From Candidatus Aphodenecus pullistercoris (GTDB lineage: Bacteria; Spirochaetota; Spirochaetia; Sphaerochaetales; Sphaerochaetaceae), in assembly GCA_017694495.1 (NCBI GenBank), contig JADIMU010000001.1, positions 1 to 52,001 of the forward strand: a DNA stretch of 52,001 nucleotides, given 5' to 3'. Below, piece by piece: positions 5,869-52,001 of the stretch. Under the pieces are notes generated by a model, which was not told the origin of the DNA, searched no databases, and was given only the letters and a program-made list of their open reading frames with translations. Numbering within the stretch: the first letter of the stretch is position 1; every line of letters starts with the position of its first letter. Position numbers and translations under genes: made by a program.

Positions 5869-6318
5869 ATGGTCTACGACACGATCGACAATCTTCACCG
5901 CTACGCTTCCATCCATCCGGCCATCGCGCTTGCCGACAGGATGATCCGCGATGGCGTCCTTGCGACGCTTCCCGCCGGAAGCAATCCGACCCAGCGCGAC
6001 GACATGCGCTGCCAGATCAACATCTACATGACGGAAGGGGAGGAGAAGGCCTACGAGTGGCACAAGGTCGAGGCCGACCTCCAGGTCATGCTCTCAGGCC
6101 AGGAGCGCTGCCTCTGGTCAAGCCAGCAGGGCGACCTGGACGACCCGGCCTTCGAGAAGGGCGACATCGCATTCACCGACGCCGAGAAGAGCGAGGAGTG
6201 CCTTCTGAAGGAGGGCACCTTCGTCCTCTACCTGCCTGGCGAGCTCCACAAGCCGGGAGTCAGTGTCCAGGGTGAGGCGAGGCAGAACCGCAAGGCCGTC
6301 TTCAAGATCAGATTCTGA
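5869..6318 (+). CDS. YhcH/YjgK/YiaL family protein (DUF386, EbgC-like)
   Basis: A 149-residue cupin-fold protein of the YhcH/YjgK/YiaL family, which includes EbgC and enzymes implicated in sugar metabolism. Visible family blocks are YEWHKVEADLQVMLSGQE in the middle (typical His and Glu positions) and YLPGELHKPG near the C-terminus, the usual metal-site region. It begins 1 nt after the coaD stop, with AAGGAGAA before the ATG, so it is probably co-transcribed with coaD. The substrate cannot be told from sequence. Confidence 0.88.
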   Translation: MVYDTIDNLHRYASIHPAIALADRMIRDGVLATLPAGSNPTQRDDMRCQINIYMTEGEEKAYEWHKVEADLQVMLSGQERCLWSSQQGDLDDPAFEKGDIAFTDAEKSEECLLKEGTFVLYLPGELHKPGVSVQGEARQNRKAVFKIRF

Positions 6319-6424: not shown

Positions 6425-6506
6425 GGAGAGGTTCCCGAGCGGTCAAAGGGGGCAGACTGTAAGTCTGTTGGCTTAGCCTTCGAAGGTCCGAATCCTTCTC
6501 TCTCCA
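6425..6506 (+). tRNA. tRNA-Tyr (anticodon GTA)
   Basis: An 82-nt class II tRNA. The acceptor stem GGAGAGG pairs with TCTCTCC. The anticodon stem-loop GCAGA-CTGTAAG-TCTGT places GTA in the loop. A long variable arm (GGCTTAGCC) and T-arm GAAGG-TCCGAAT-CCTTC follow. The discriminator is A at 6506 and no CCA is encoded. The sequence resembles bacterial tRNA-Tyr closely. Confidence 0.96.
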
Positions 6507-32895: not shown

Positions 32896-33576
32896 TCAGC
32901 CCACTCCCAGATCGGTGTTCTCGAGAAGGAGCTCGGCCTTCGTGCTTTGCGCAAGGAGGCCTGGCAAGGTGGCCTTGGCCCAGCGGGAGAGCTCCTCGTC
33001 CCGCCTGACGGACGTGGAGTTCGGGCAGAAGAGGTTGACCGAGTAGTAGTCGAAGCTGTCCTCGGCGATCCTTATCGACGAGAGCACATCTTCCCTGCTC
33101 TGCCCCTCGACGCCCACGAGGAGACATACTCCTTCGAAGTACCGCCTCACCTCCTGTGGCGTGACATCCTCCCCGATACCCTTCCGCCAGGCGGTGCGCA
33201 GCTGGCCCGAGAAGCTCTCGACGCCCGTCCTGAAGTGGACGCGGCAAGGAAAGCGGGAAGCGAAGTCGGCCAGCCTGTTCCTGTACATCCAGTGGGCCTC
33301 GAACCAGAGGTCCTGGATGCCCTTCTCCACAACGATCGATGCGATGAGGTCCACAGTCCTCCCATCCAGTTCCATGGCGCTGCCCGAGTTGATGACGTCA
33401 AGCACGCCGAAGTCCCCGCTGACGAGCTCAAGGACGGCCCTGTTCACCTCATACGGGTCTCCTGAAGTGTCCAGGTGGTAGTCGCAGAAGGTGCACTTCC
33501 TCCAGCGGCAGCCAAGCCCCTGGAGGAGGACGAACTCCCGTCTCAGGCCCTTTTCGATGCGGCTGTAGCGGATCAT
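32896..33576 (-). CDS. Radical SAM protein, candidate queuine lyase (QueL-like)
   Basis: A 226-residue radical SAM enzyme. The cluster motif GCRWRKCTFCDYH has spacing C-x4-C-x2-C rather than the usual C-x3-C-x2-C. A GSAME-like segment (INSGSAMELDG) follows in the SAM-binding region. The ATG overlaps the yhhQ stop (ATGA), so the two are translated together. In gut Clostridia a radical SAM queuine lyase (QueL) works with queuosine-precursor transporters to yield preQ1. Context makes this the best hypothesis, but I could not compare sequences. It is not QueE, whose motif differs. Confidence 0.65.
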   Translation of the reverse strand: MIRYSRIEKGLRREFVLLQGLGCRWRKCTFCDYHLDTSGDPYEVNRAVLELVSGDFGVLDVINSGSAMELDGRTVDLIASIVVEKGIQDLWFEAHWMYRNRLADFASRFPCRVHFRTGVESFSGQLRTAWRKGIGEDVTPQEVRRYFEGVCLLVGVEGQSREDVLSSIRIAEDSFDYYSVNLFCPNSTSVRRDEELSRWAKATLPGLLAQSTKAELLLENTDLGVG

Positions 33577-34244
33577 GCGAACCTCCGCTCAAGCCAGGCG
33601 ACGAGGCCATAGGCGAGAGGCGTGCCGAAGAGGGCCTCGATCAGGAGCTTGGCGGCGTACTGGACGAGGATCATCGAGACGAGCTCGGATGCGGGGACGG
33701 TGAAGCTGAAGCCGAGGATGACGAAGAGGACCGTGTCGAAGAGGTAGCCGACCATCGAGGAGCCGATCGTGCGCACCCACAGCTTCTCCCTCCGCTTCTG
33801 CCGGCTTCGGATCCACACGAGGGCCTTGGCGTTGGCGAGCTCACCGGAGAGGAAGCTTATGAGGCTCGCGGCCACGATGCGCGGCACATAGCCGAAGATC
33901 GTCTCGTAGGCGCTCTGGGTGTCTGCCATGTAGTCCGGGTATGGAAGGACGATTCCAAGGGCCGTGAAGAGGACCAGGAGGATGTTGCACAGGAAGCTCA
34001 GCCAGATGACGCGTCGAGCCACCTTGTAGCCCCAGACTTCGGCAAGGACGTCACCAAGCATGTAGGTCAGCGGAAAGGTGATCGTCCCGGCGTCGAAGAG
34101 CGACAGTGGTCCGATCGAGATGACTTTGACGGCCATGAGGTTGGCGGTCAGATACAGTGTGATCAACAGGCAGGATACGACTACAAGGGCGTTGAAGTCG
34201 CCATCCCGGTTTTTTGAAGGGTTTTCCGGCACCTTTTCGTTCAT
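33573..34244 (-). CDS. Queuosine precursor transporter, YhhQ family
   Basis: A 223-residue inner-membrane protein with about six hydrophobic segments. Family blocks are TANLMAVKVISIGPLSLFDAGTITFPLTYMLGDVLAEVWGYK and, later, GSSMVGYLFDTVLFVILGF. YhhQ members import preQ0/preQ1, and some import queuine. The ATG is 8 nt downstream of TATAGT with no ribosome binding site, so the transcript looks leaderless. It heads the minus-strand cluster and is divergent from the AI-2E-family gene. Confidence 0.92.
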   Translation of the reverse strand: MNEKVPENPSKNRDGDFNALVVVSCLLITLYLTANLMAVKVISIGPLSLFDAGTITFPLTYMLGDVLAEVWGYKVARRVIWLSFLCNILLVLFTALGIVLPYPDYMADTQSAYETIFGYVPRIVAASLISFLSGELANAKALVWIRSRQKRREKLWVRTIGSSMVGYLFDTVLFVILGFSFTVPASELVSMILVQYAAKLLIEALFGTPLAYGLVAWLERRFA

Positions 34245-37013: not shown

Positions 37014-39707
37014 ATGAGAACCAACGCCATCACAAAAATCCTTGCCAACGACAAGGAATACACGAAGAGCGCCCTCGCCTCCCTCGACCTGGAGAGCTTC
37101 AAGGCCATCGACAAGGCCATGGAGAAGCTGGACTACGAGGACCTTGGAGAGCTCGCCGACAAGGCCAATGAGATCATCGAGGCCCACAGCGAGTCCGTCA
37201 TGGCCCGCTACACGCTTGGAGCCATCGCCTTCGTCCGCCGTCCCCACGAAGACAACATCTTCATGCAGAACCTTCTGATAAGCTTCTACGACGTCCAGAA
37301 CTGGCCGGCCGTCGAGTTCCTGTGCCAGCGCATCCTTGCCTACAACGAGAACCGCTATGCATTGCGCATGCTTGCCGACTGCTACGAGGAGACGGGCCGC
37401 GAGGACGAGAAGTGGTCCGTCCTCGAGCGCCTTGTGAAGGTCGACTTCGACGAGAAGAAGCTCACCCGCCTTCTTGGCGACCACTTCAATGAGCTTGGCG
37501 ACAGGGAGAAGGCCCTCCTCTACTACAGGAGGACGCTGACGCGCGCCATCTCGAGCCATGACGGAGACACAGTCAAGGCCATGTGGGCCGTCCTCCTTCC
37601 CCTCCAGGGCGAGGACTACGGCTACTTCCTCGGCATCGCGGAGAAGGTCGCAACCAGCGTCGACAAGGCCCTCGCCCTCTGTCTGCTGACCGAGCTGTAC
37701 AGCCACTACTCCAACGATACGTCCAAGGCCATCCTCATCCTGAAGAAGGCCCTTGAGATCGACCCGCACAGCAGCCAGGCCCGCGAGGCCCTGGTCAAGA
37801 GCTACAAGGCCAAGTACGCCAAGAGCTCGAGGCTCGCCGAGTGCCTGAAGAAGTCCCGCCTCTCGGACCCGAACGAGGACATCGCGAAAGCCATCGCCTT
37901 CTTCGAGACCGACATCGCCTTCGACGTGGGCTCCTTCGTCTACCAGAGGAGTACGGACAGGCTCGGCCTGATCCAGTCGATCGACGACAGGCAGGTCGTC
38001 GTCGCCTTCAACAAGGCGAGCAAGGTCTCGATGGCCTTCGACATGGCCTTCAAGGCCCTCACTCCGCTTCCGAAGAACAACATCAGGGTCCTTAAGACCG
38101 CTGTGCCAGCCAAGCTTGCCGCGAAGATCAAGGCCGATCCCCGCTGGGCCCTCGTGACCATCCTCGAGAGCCACAACGACAAGTGCTCCCTCAAGGAGAT
38201 GAAGGAGGAGCTCGTACCCTCCGTCCTCAGCCAGAAGGACTGGGAGAGCTTCCGCACCGCCGCGCGCAGGATCCTCCAGGAGGACCCCTACTTCAGCGCA
38301 GTCCTGGATGAGAACGACACCTACATGCTCCGCTCCACCCCGATCACGCAGGAGGAGAAGCAGCTTGCAGTCTTCGACTCGGAGAAGGACTTCTACGGCA
38401 AGGTCAAGATCATGCGCGACTTCGTCTCGAAGGGCCTCGACGTCGAGTCCGAAGCCTTCAGCGAGATGGTCGTCTACTTCAACACTTGCCTGGCGAAGCA
38501 GGCTGAGGGCGTCAGCGACCGCATCATGTCCAGCTACCTCCTTCTTGACCAGCTCAGGAGCCACGAGCACATCGCGACTGCAGTCATAGAGACGAATGTC
38601 ACCTTCGCCGACCTCTACAAGAAGGTCGATGACAAGATCCGGCTCTTCGACAGGATCGGCAACGGCGACCTCAAGCGCGCCTTCCTGGAGAACGTCATGG
38701 CCTGTGACCGCTCCTGGAGCGAAGTCTTCCGCAAGTGCTTCCCCTACTACACCTATGCCTGGATTCCGACCTGTCTGAAGAACAACGGCAAGAGCTCGGT
38801 CTACATCGGCATGGTCGCCGACAGCGTCCACTCCTGGAGGGAGAACGTCGACGTCTTCCTCTGGTTCTACAAGAACGCCGACCAGAACGACTGGGTCAAG
38901 GCCGGAATCAGCCGCGAGGAGCTGCTGCTCACCCTCCTGCTGGTCCTCGACTACAGCGCGAGCAACATCGAGCTGAGGAAGGACGTCAGCGAGAACAGGA
39001 AGCGCAACGAGCTCGTGACGGGCTACCTCTTCAGCGACCGCAAGCTCTTCGAGGCGATCGACAAGGGCGACCGCGACCTGGCGAGCAAGATCTACTCGAT
39101 CGTCGCCAACGACAGGAACATCGACCCGGGCCACGTCATCGAGGTCAAGCACTTCATCAGCGAGAAGTACCCCGACTTCACCTTCTTCGACGACAACCCG
39201 GTCCAGATCCGCGAGGACGAGCTCATCCCCATGGGCTTCCTGTGCACGAAGAAGGCCCTTGACGAGAAGATCAGGGAGAAGGAGCACATCGAGCATGTCG
39301 AGCTCCAGGCCGTCGCCAGCGAGATCGCCGACGCCCGCGCCCTGGGCGACCTCAGGGAGAACGCCGAGTACCAGTACGGCAAGGACAAGCAGAAGAACCT
39401 CAACGCCCGCCTCAGGACGCTGAGCGACGAGATCGAGAAGGCCCAGGTCATCACGCCGGAGAGCGTCAACCCCTCCCGCGTCAGCTTCGGCACGACAGTC
39501 ACCCTCCACGACCGCATCCAGAACAGGGAGCTCCAGTACACCATCCTCGGCCAGTGGGAGAGCGACCCCGACCACGGCATCCTGAACTTCAAGACGCCGC
39601 TTGGAATGAAGCTCCTGAACAGGAGCGTGGGCGACGAGCTCGACTTCGAGATCAACGGCACGCCGTACAGCTACACGGTCAAGGACATCAAGGTCGCCGA
39701 TTTCTGA
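37014..39707 (+). CDS. greA: Transcript cleavage factor GreA with long N-terminal extension
   Basis: An 897-residue protein whose last ~155 residues are GreA. The coiled-coil tip ALGDLRENAEYQYGKDKQ keeps the Asp and Glu needed to stimulate RNA cleavage by RNA polymerase, and the FKBP-like C-terminal domain ends FEINGTPYSYTVKDIKVADF. The preceding ~740 residues are mainly helical with TPR-like repeats near 110-260 and no other domain I recognise. Fusions of this size (~900 residues) are characteristic of spirochaetes such as Borrelia. ATG follows GGAGG in the leader. Overlaps murJ tail-to-tail by 20 nt. Confidence 0.9.
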   Translation: MRTNAITKILANDKEYTKSALASLDLESFKAIDKAMEKLDYEDLGELADKANEIIEAHSESVMARYTLGAIAFVRRPHEDNIFMQNLLISFYDVQNWPAVEFLCQRILAYNENRYALRMLADCYEETGREDEKWSVLERLVKVDFDEKKLTRLLGDHFNELGDREKALLYYRRTLTRAISSHDGDTVKAMWAVLLPLQGEDYGYFLGIAEKVATSVDKALALCLLTELYSHYSNDTSKAILILKKALEIDPHSSQAREALVKSYKAKYAKSSRLAECLKKSRLSDPNEDIAKAIAFFETDIAFDVGSFVYQRSTDRLGLIQSIDDRQVVVAFNKASKVSMAFDMAFKALTPLPKNNIRVLKTAVPAKLAAKIKADPRWALVTILESHNDKCSLKEMKEELVPSVLSQKDWESFRTAARRILQEDPYFSAVLDENDTYMLRSTPITQEEKQLAVFDSEKDFYGKVKIMRDFVSKGLDVESEAFSEMVVYFNTCLAKQAEGVSDRIMSSYLLLDQLRSHEHIATAVIETNVTFADLYKKVDDKIRLFDRIGNGDLKRAFLENVMACDRSWSEVFRKCFPYYTYAWIPTCLKNNGKSSVYIGMVADSVHSWRENVDVFLWFYKNADQNDWVKAGISREELLLTLLLVLDYSASNIELRKDVSENRKRNELVTGYLFSDRKLFEAIDKGDRDLASKIYSIVANDRNIDPGHVIEVKHFISEKYPDFTFFDDNPVQIREDELIPMGFLCTKKALDEKIREKEHIEHVELQAVASEIADARALGDLRENAEYQYGKDKQKNLNARLRTLSDEIEKAQVITPESVNPSRVSFGTTVTLHDRIQNRELQYTILGQWESDPDHGILNFKTPLGMKLLNRSVGDELDFEINGTPYSYTVKDIKVADF

Positions 39708-41211
39708 GCGCCGAGAGGAAGTCGACCTTGAATGCGATGTAGCTTGCCAGGGCCACGGCAAGCATGCCGAGGCCAGCAATAATGGTGAGGACCAGGGTCC
39801 TCAGTGTGGAGCCCGCAGTGTAGAACTGCGGGTTCCATTTTCCATACAGGACGACTGTGGCGGCAAGCGGTATGTTCGCAATGATGACTCGTCCCCCCTT
39901 GTGGATGAATCGCCTCCAGTCGAAGCCGTGGACGAAGGGGAAGAGGCAGAGCGTCCCGATGAGCGAGGACGAGAGGCTTGCAAGCGGCATGGAGACGACG
40001 CCAAGTCCCTGGGACATGTAGAAAAGCGTGAATGCGATGTCTGCAAGGCTCACAGCCACGCCTACTGCGAGGTTGCGCCAGTAGTCCAGCGTGCTGTACA
40101 TCCAGCGCTGGAGCATGGCATAGAAGGCCATGGGCAGCATGGCGGCGAGGTAGGCCGTCAGGACGGAGGCTGTGAGCACAGTGTCGTCGAGCGTGAAGGC
40201 CCCGCCCTGCAATAGGCTTGCGACGCACTCGCGGCTCAGGGAGGCGAGGACCAGGGCTGCGGGAAGGAGGAAGGTCGTGAGGTTCACGAGGGCATCGGAA
40301 AGGGCCGCTGCCCTTCCCCTTTCATCCTTGCGCCTCGAGATGAGGGGAAAGTAGACCGCGTTGACCGAGGCGAAGACGATTCCGTAAGGCGCGCTGTAGA
40401 AGACGATCGCATTGCTCAGCGCTGTGACGGATCCGGCTTCAAGCCGGCTTGCGAGGTACATCGTGACGCTTTGCGATGCGATGGCGACGAGGGATGAGGC
40501 GCTCGCCGGCAGCCAGGAGCGCATGAGGGTCCGGAAATCTTCATTCGCTGCGAAATGGAAGTCCAGACGGAAGCGGATGCCAAGCTTCCTGAAGTCGATG
40601 AGGACTATGGCGAGCTGGGCCAGCGATCCTGCGACGGCTCCAATGGCCATGGACCAGTATCCGACATCGTCGCTCAGGAGCCAGAGCGAGAGCAGCATGG
40701 TCAGGGTGAAGAAGATCGGGGCGATTCCCGATGCGAGGAAGCGCCGCTTCGTCTGGAGGATGGAGGCGGAAAGCGTCGCCAGGCTGATGAAAAAGAGGAA
40801 GAGCGTGAATGGAGGAAGGAGAAAGGCCGCCACCTCGAGGCCCTCGCCTTCGAAGTCGGAGAGCGCGGCCATGATCGGACGAGCGAAGATTGCGACAGCC
40901 GTGATGATGAGGGCGAAGATGAGGATGAGGAAGCTCGCCACCTGTCGGTAGAGCCGCGCTGTGCGGCCATCATCCTCACAGGAGGCGAAAAGCGGAATGT
41001 ATGAGGCCGACAGCGAGCCCTCGGCGAAGAGCTTGCGGAAGTTGTTGGACAGATTGTAGCTGAAGTTCATCGCGTCGCTGAGCGTCCCTGATCCGAAGAC
41101 CAGGGCGATCAGCCGGCTTTTCAGTATGCCTAAGAGGCGTGAGACGAAGGTCGCCGCCATCAGCAGGAGGGTCGACGCCTCGCTCCTGTCCCCCATCCTC
41201 TCCTCAGCCAT
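39688..41211 (-). CDS. murJ: Lipid II flippase MurJ (MviN)
   Basis: Flips lipid II across the membrane for peptidoglycan synthesis. The 507-residue protein has about 13-14 hydrophobic segments. The N-terminal block VSRLLGILKSRLIALVFGSGTLSDAMNFSYNLSNNFRKLFAEGSLSASYIPLF is the MviN signature, and basic residues of the central cavity (SRR, KDER) are visible. The ATG overlaps the tgt stop by 8 nt. It is the last gene of the infB-to-murJ cluster and overlaps the convergent GreA gene by 20 nt. Confidence 0.94.
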   Translation of the reverse strand: MAEERMGDRSEASTLLLMAATFVSRLLGILKSRLIALVFGSGTLSDAMNFSYNLSNNFRKLFAEGSLSASYIPLFASCEDDGRTARLYRQVASFLILIFALIITAVAIFARPIMAALSDFEGEGLEVAAFLLPPFTLFLFFISLATLSASILQTKRRFLASGIAPIFFTLTMLLSLWLLSDDVGYWSMAIGAVAGSLAQLAIVLIDFRKLGIRFRLDFHFAANEDFRTLMRSWLPASASSLVAIASQSVTMYLASRLEAGSVTALSNAIVFYSAPYGIVFASVNAVYFPLISRRKDERGRAAALSDALVNLTTFLLPAALVLASLSRECVASLLQGGAFTLDDTVLTASVLTAYLAAMLPMAFYAMLQRWMYSTLDYWRNLAVGVAVSLADIAFTLFYMSQGLGVVSMPLASLSSSLIGTLCLFPFVHGFDWRRFIHKGGRVIIANIPLAATVVLYGKWNPQFYTAGSTLRTLVLTIIAGLGMLAVALASYIAFKVDFLSALRNRRP

Positions 41212-42328
41212 AGAATCGCGCCAGGTATTCCTTCTTGAACTGGCTGAAGCGGCCTTCCCTGATCGAGGCCCTGATCCTCTCCAGAAGGTTGTACAGATAG
41301 GTCAGGTTGTGCTCTGTGGCGAGCATGCCTCCAAGCATCTCGTTGCACTTGACCAGGTGGTGCATGTAGGCGCGCGAATACTTCGTGCACGCCGTACATG
41401 TGCATCCCTCCTGGATGGGCCCTTCGTCGAACTTGTGGCAAGCCTTCTTCATCGCGATGACTCCATCGTCAGTGAAGAGGCCTCCGTTGCGCGCCATGCG
41501 GGTGGCAAGGACGCAGTCGAAGAGGTCGATGCCGTTGGCCACACACTCGAAGATGTAGTCGGGCGAACCTATTCCCATGACATAGCGCGGCTTATCCGGT
41601 GTGACGTACTGGGCCGTATAGGAGAGCATGTCGGCAAACTGCTCCTTGCTCTCGCCCACCGACAGGCCACCGATCGCGATGCCGGGAAAGTCCATGTCGC
41701 TCAGCACGAGGGCGCTCTCCTTCCTCAGGTCCTCGTAGAAGTTGCCCTGGACGATGCAGAAGAGATTGCCGCGGAAGGACTCGCCCAGCCTCCTCCTCTC
41801 CTCGAGGGAGCGCTCGGCCCACAGCTTCGTGACGCGCCAGGCCTCCTCGGCCTGACGATGGCTGATGCCGGGTGGCGTGCACACATCGAGGCACATCGCG
41901 ATGTCGCTTCCGATGATGCCCTGGACGTCGACGACCTTCTCGGGCGTGAAGACATGCCTCGAGCCGTCGATGTGGCTCTGGAAGGTGACTCCGGCGTCGC
42001 GTATCTTCCTCAGTCCTGAGAGCGAGAATACCTGGAAGCCGCCCGAGTCGGTGAGGATGTTGCCGTCCCAGTTGGAGAAGCGGTGCAGCCCGCCGAACTG
42101 GCCGATGACCTCCATGCCCGGTCTAAGGTAGAGGTGATAGGTGTTTGCGAGGATGAGCTTGTAGCCGATCTGGGCGACCTTGTCATGGTAGATGCCCTTG
42201 ACTGTTCCGTTCGTGCCCACAGGCATGAAGGTCGGAGTCTCGACGCGTCCATGTGGCAGGTCGATGTAGCCCAGGCGGGCCTTCGTGTCCCTGTCCTGGA
42301 GGGTGCATGTGAATATCTTTTCAACCAT
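41204..42328 (-). CDS. tgt: tRNA-guanine transglycosylase
   Basis: Exchanges G34 of GUN-anticodon tRNAs for preQ1, the key insertion step of queuosine synthesis. The 374 residues contain TDSGGFQVFSL (base-contacting Asp), MCLDVC, FCIVQGN, AIGGLSVGE, the nucleophile block FDCVLATRMARNG and the zinc site CTCTACTKYSRAYMHHL. Cys in MCLDVC and Val in GGLSVGE match bacterial preQ1-type enzymes, not queuine-type ones. FDCVLATRM differs from the usual FDCVLPTRN. The ATG overlaps the lptG stop by 8 nt and follows TAGGAAAGA. Confidence 0.96.
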   Translation of the reverse strand: MVEKIFTCTLQDRDTKARLGYIDLPHGRVETPTFMPVGTNGTVKGIYHDKVAQIGYKLILANTYHLYLRPGMEVIGQFGGLHRFSNWDGNILTDSGGFQVFSLSGLRKIRDAGVTFQSHIDGSRHVFTPEKVVDVQGIIGSDIAMCLDVCTPPGISHRQAEEAWRVTKLWAERSLEERRRLGESFRGNLFCIVQGNFYEDLRKESALVLSDMDFPGIAIGGLSVGESKEQFADMLSYTAQYVTPDKPRYVMGIGSPDYIFECVANGIDLFDCVLATRMARNGGLFTDDGVIAMKKACHKFDEGPIQEGCTCTACTKYSRAYMHHLVKCNEMLGGMLATEHNLTYLYNLLERIRASIREGRFSQFKKEYLARFYG

Positions 42329-51965: not shown

Positions 51966-52001
51966 CTGTCTCTTATACACATCTGACGCTGCCGACGATA
52001 C
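51966..52001. other. Nextera transposase adapter contamination
   Basis: Positions 51966-51984 equal the 19-bp Tn5 mosaic end (CTGTCTCTTATACACATCT). They are followed at 51985-51998 by GACGCTGCCGACGA, the rest of the Nextera read-1 adapter in reverse complement. The last three bases would be the start of the index. This is library adapter, not genomic DNA. Confidence 0.98.

Follow-up and report, generated by a model that had tools for sequence, protein, structure and literature searches.

Queuine, the base of queuosine, is a vitamin-like compound. The QueL enzyme family and its reaction were already described in 2019 work, as cited in PMC11130926 and PMC11570991, and QueKL has been mapped in human gut genomes (PMC11130926). 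In Clostridioides difficile, salvage follows a route in which QueK, QrtT and QueL are under a PreQ1-I riboswitch (PMC11477304). Known members of the YhhQ (QPTR) transporter family differ in substrate, which is preQ0/preQ1 in E. coli and queuine in Chlamydia, and tRNA-guanine transglycosylases (TGTs) that use queuine carry GG[LS][AS]G in the base pocket, while the valine of the E. coli-like pocket (GGLAVG), which points into the queuine diol, marks TGTs of the preQ1 type (PMC11570991).

The locus described here lies in a 52,001-nucleotide stretch of spirochaete DNA (the window; Table 1), part of a 2.07-Mb draft genome of 70 contigs that is 98.6% complete (G000, the window genome). As claimed in an earlier note on this DNA, a gene for a YhhQ transporter is followed by one for a radical SAM protein, and the stop codon of the former overlaps the start of the latter by four bases (ATGA). 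The radical SAM protein has its full length, fold, C-x4-C-x2-C motif and most conserved residues in common with QueL of C. difficile and Clostridium spiroforme (PDB 6p78), and the downstream need for preQ1 is alike, but the window enzyme is 37-38% identical to 6p78 and has a spirochaete host. As in the C. difficile queK-qrtT-queL operon, a transporter gene is coupled to queL in a genome without preQ1 synthesis; however, clostridial QueL is paired with QueK and the ECF S-component QrtT whereas the partner in the window is a QPTR (PF02592), and the window genome has no QueK-family nucleosidase and the window no PreQ1-I riboswitch. No preQ1 riboswitch was found upstream of yhhQ, either in the window at gathering threshold or when the vicinity of the pair was scanned under relaxed settings. 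A YhhQ-family transporter, probably for queuine, is common to the window and to the direct salvage system of Chlamydia trachomatis (YhhQ with a queuine-type TGT), but the window TGT keeps a preQ1-type pocket (GGLSVG) and queA and queH are retained, so that imported queuine would first have to be converted. The pair is flanked by a gene for an AI-2E-family permease on one side and by rpe-recA-scpA on the other, likewise in some close relatives, and sits elsewhere in other genomes of the genus.

Table 1. Positions of features in the window.
Feature	Coordinates	Strand	Details
yhhQ/qptr, queuosine precursor transporter	34244-33573	minus	223 aa; PF02592, TIGR00697
queL, radical SAM queuine lyase (predicted)	33576-32896	minus	226 aa; phmmer and fold match to 6p78
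tgt, tRNA-guanine transglycosylase	41204-42328	minus	PF01702, E=4.6e-148; pocket GGLSVGE, preQ1-type
tRNA-Tyr(GUA)	6425-6506		one of four GUN tRNAs carrying queuosine
TPR-GreA/GreB fusion protein	37014-39707		897 aa; TPR repeats fused to full elongation factor (N- and C-terminal domains)
Contig end	51966-52001		Nextera transposase adapter (CTGTCTCTTATACACATCTGACGCTGCCGACGA), an assembly artefact giving the IF-2 ORF a false N-terminus, MCIRDR

The earlier note had proposed that the radical SAM protein is a QueL, and this identification was upheld by both sequence and predicted structure. In a phmmer comparison with sequences of solved structures, the one real match (E=1.8e-43) was to 6p78, the characterised queuine lyase QueL of C. 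spiroforme, and the alignment covered the full length of the protein (residues 1-226 to 23-250 of 6p78). For an AlphaFold model built from 26 relatives (pLDDT 91.6, pTM 0.89), 6p78 was first by far in Foldseek (TM 0.92, E=3.3e-22) and gave Z=31.0 with an rmsd of 1.8 Å over 224 residues in VIA-align, as against values of about 13 or below for other radical SAM families (RlmN, viperin, HydE, lipoyl synthase and others). No acceptable match was obtained from Pfam or NCBIfam, the best in the latter being to TIGR01210 (archaeosine RaSEA; E=0.014, with a score of 14.7 bits where the cut-off is 212). The nearest QueL relatives of the window protein were from uncultured Spirochaetales/Spirochaetaceae.

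The cluster motif reads C23-RWRK-C28-TF-C31, and its cysteines, which correspond to C45, C50 and C53 of 6p78, were invariant in 84 aligned sequences. The C-x4-C-x2-C spacing pointed out in the earlier note is therefore present but is a trait of the QueL family rather than an oddity of the window protein, because 6p78 and all aligned relatives have it. In the 26-member alignment there were 40 invariant columns, including the cluster cysteines, most of them identical in 6p78. Besides the cysteines, residues kept across the 84 homologues were D32-Y33, D36, N45, N63-S64-G65-S66, E93, H95, G118, E120, K132, F175, N181 and N186, all identical in 6p78. Positions fixed in the YhhQ-linked group but different in 6p78 were G20/S42, G22/P44, D71/P96, G133/N159 and N220/P244 (6p78 residue second).

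Assignment of the transporter was straightforward, the window YhhQ exceeding the cut-offs of both PF02592 (E=6.7e-46; 156.8 bits against 27.2) and TIGR00697 (queuosine precursor transporter; E=5.1e-31; 108 bits against 50.95). The QPTR/YhhQ family corresponds to COG1738, and the window protein is its only member in the window genome. In a midpoint-rooted tree of 117 YhhQ proteins, in which deep branches were long, those linked to QueL formed two well-separated groups: a larger one (clade A) of 71 members with support of 100/97, which includes the window YhhQ and is 21-24% identical to other QPTR types, and a smaller one of five members that joins spirochaete QPTRs without QueL. The QueL-linkage label changed twice on this tree as opposed to 34 times in shuffles. 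Pairing with queL thus looks to have arisen in two separate YhhQ lineages, a statement about two groups and not about direction. That a single enzyme family is associated twice, and separately, with a single transporter family speaks for a substrate path in common. Queuine as the substrate of the window YhhQ is suggested by the pairing with queL and by the separate clade.

The association of yhhQ with queL extended well beyond the window. Genome contigs were scanned for QueL, which yielded 80 independent loci; Spirochaetota, Bacteroidota (for the most part from ruminant gut) and Bacillota were represented, together with a single Desulfovibrio. In 75 of the 80 loci yhhQ adjoined queL on the same strand with a gap of at most 53 bases and frequent overlap. 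The order was yhhQ-queL in 71 loci and queL-yhhQ in four, and Fusobacterium vincentii showed the latter order with a 4-base overlap. Other neighbours varied between loci, yhhQ-queL being the sole conserved pair, and the pairing is not a matter of chance. Carriage of the pair by mobile elements was considered and rejected, as there was no match among phages or viral contigs and the one "plasmid" match was an F. vincentii record labelled plasmid pSB055A (NZ_CP084075.1) that, at 2.1 Mb, looks chromosomal. Four loci (L036, L044, L046 and L067, from three Bacteroidaceae and one Ruminococcus) had queL without adjacent yhhQ, and another transporter would be needed elsewhere in those genomes. In an Oscillospiraceae MAG (L072), queL lay beside folate genes, also without adjacent yhhQ, and its frame was broken by TAG (positions 6280-6282) at the conserved Trp of EAHWMY, which could reflect a pseudogene, a sequencing error or TAG readthrough.

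The earlier note had also described a TGT with a preQ1-type pocket, which was confirmed, and had asked whether the genome lacks queD, queE and queC but has queA and queG or queH. Neither of the two conditions that the note named as refuting its reading held, as a full set of preQ0 synthesis genes was not present and the radical SAM protein grouped with characterised QueL. The single-copy tgt, located 7 kb from the pair in a separate operon, encodes the pocket GGLSVGE, and the window genome contains queA (E=1.1e-130) and queH (E=5e-53). No match was found in this genome for the QueD family (PF01242), QueF (PF14489) or a QueK-type nucleosidase (IU_nuc_hydro, PF01156). The sole QueC-family match (PF06508, E=3.7e-4) was rejected as QueC since it reads as ThiI beside a NifS-like cysteine desulfurase. 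Judging by the absence of QueD, QueC and QueF from this draft genome, the organism is unable to make preQ0 or preQ1 itself, and with a preQ1-type TGT the cell would need preQ1 that it cannot make. QueK was discarded as a part of the module, PF01156 being present in some congeners and absent from the window genome. A strong QueC was likewise missing from 48 of 50 QueL-bearing genomes of several phyla; the other two, both Bacteroidota (G067, 3.4e-82; G084, 7.9e-41), may keep both salvage and de novo routes. Weaker QueC-family matches in QueL genomes lay in open frames that differ in size, which is what ATP-pyrophosphatases other than QueC, ThiI and MnmA among them, would give; that of the window genome is the one that was read.

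Among 61 relatives, QueL was present in 12, always with yhhQ adjacent on the same strand and always without QueD. The association between QueD absence and QueL presence (p=0.022, with kinship ignored) is given no weight here, since 10 of the 12 QueL genomes belong to one genus. In most near relatives tgt, queA and a QPTR are retained without QueL, and for these preQ1 uptake alone is evidently enough, a point to be set against the salvage reading. The TGT pocket was of no use as a marker of the switch, as GGLSVG was found in every relative read, with or without QueL. Within the genus (16 congeners, window genome included), each genome had exactly one QPTR, of three types, one of them paired with queL: QueL with a clade-A transporter in ten, the common spirochaete-type transporter without QueL in three (G003, G006 and G010) and a third type without QueL in three (G004, G007 and G013). 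This divergent third type lay beside genes for a short-chain dehydrogenase and an RluA-like pseudouridine synthase (L184, L185 and L186). All 16 congeners had tgt, all except G013 (62% complete) had queA and none had QueF; a weak PTPS match (about 1e-10) was noted in three QueL-less congeners. The pattern suggests that one salvage transporter has been exchanged for another and that QueL came in along with one of the types, a direction and a set of substrates that we infer.

These findings make it very probable, as far as genes and homology can tell, that yhhQ-queL is a two-gene module for queuine salvage by import and subsequent conversion to preQ1. The queuine-to-preQ1 reading offered in the earlier note is thus supported at the level of sequence, queuine import by YhhQ and lyase activity both being presumed. 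The module looks like a replacement for plain preQ1 uptake and, given the lack of QueD, QueC and QueF, is likely the route of the window genome to queuosine. YhhQ would import free queuine released in the gut from tRNA of host or food. By homology, QueL would then remove the cyclopentenediol of queuine in a SAM-dependent cleavage that yields preQ1; it is a small enzyme of the radical SAM type, whose single [4Fe-4S] cluster would be held by C23, C28 and C31. Genes for the remaining steps are present, by which the preQ1-type TGT would insert preQ1 at position 34 of GUN tRNAs, QueA would add the epoxycyclopentane ring and QueH would reduce epoxyqueuosine to queuosine.

Other explanations of the pair were weighed against this one. 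That the transporter imports mainly preQ1, and QueL recovers queuine that leaks in or arises from turnover of the cell's own tRNA, is unlikely, though less so than the other two. In its favour, QPTRs of the E. coli type carry preQ0/preQ1 (PMC5372724, PMC11570991), and QueL-less relatives in which tgt and queA are the same and queD and queF are missing must obtain preQ1 or an equivalent through their QPTR. However, turnover of the cell's own tRNA yields nucleoside or nucleotide, for which the window genome has no enzyme of the IU_nuc_hydro (QueK) type, queL is coupled to a transporter gene as opposed to a nucleosidase gene, and the low identity of clade A to other QPTRs sets the QueL-linked transporter apart.

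A shift of the QueL-fold enzyme to another 7-deazapurine, such as glycosylated or aminoacylated queuine, epoxyqueuine or the Q nucleoside, appears quite improbable. Identity to 6p78 of just 37%, and the five columns fixed in the YhhQ-linked group but different in 6p78, would be consistent with such a shift, whereas the core conserved residues are common to both proteins, the fold match extends over the whole length and preQ1 is exactly the product that the TGT of this genome needs. Chance proximity of yhhQ to an unrelated radical SAM enzyme (QueE-, RaSEA- or MiaB-like) is scarcely credible, since the weak TIGR01210 score that might suggest it compares with E=1.8e-43 and Z=31 for QueL and since yhhQ-queL alone is conserved while all other neighbours vary, which together refute this reading.

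Novelty of the salvage module proposed here is modest and may lie in the spirochaete host and in the occurrence of yhhQ-queL across phyla. Indirect queuine salvage would be extended to spirochaetes, and coupling of QueL to QPTR transporters in several phyla provides a handle on the substrate specificity of YhhQ, the clades with and without QueL forming a contrast for residues that choose queuine over preQ1. From tgt, queA and queH alone, these gut bacteria would be classed as preQ1 users, whereas queuine of host and dietary origin is probably what they use. Evenly balanced between acceptance and doubt is the broader proposal that the QueL-linked YhhQ clade is a lineage of dedicated queuine importers and yhhQ-queL a two-gene cassette that moves between phyla, found within one spirochaete genus in place of other QPTRs, with close species competing for different precursors. 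If this is true, queuine from host and diet and preQ1 from microbes would be the precursors for which close species compete.
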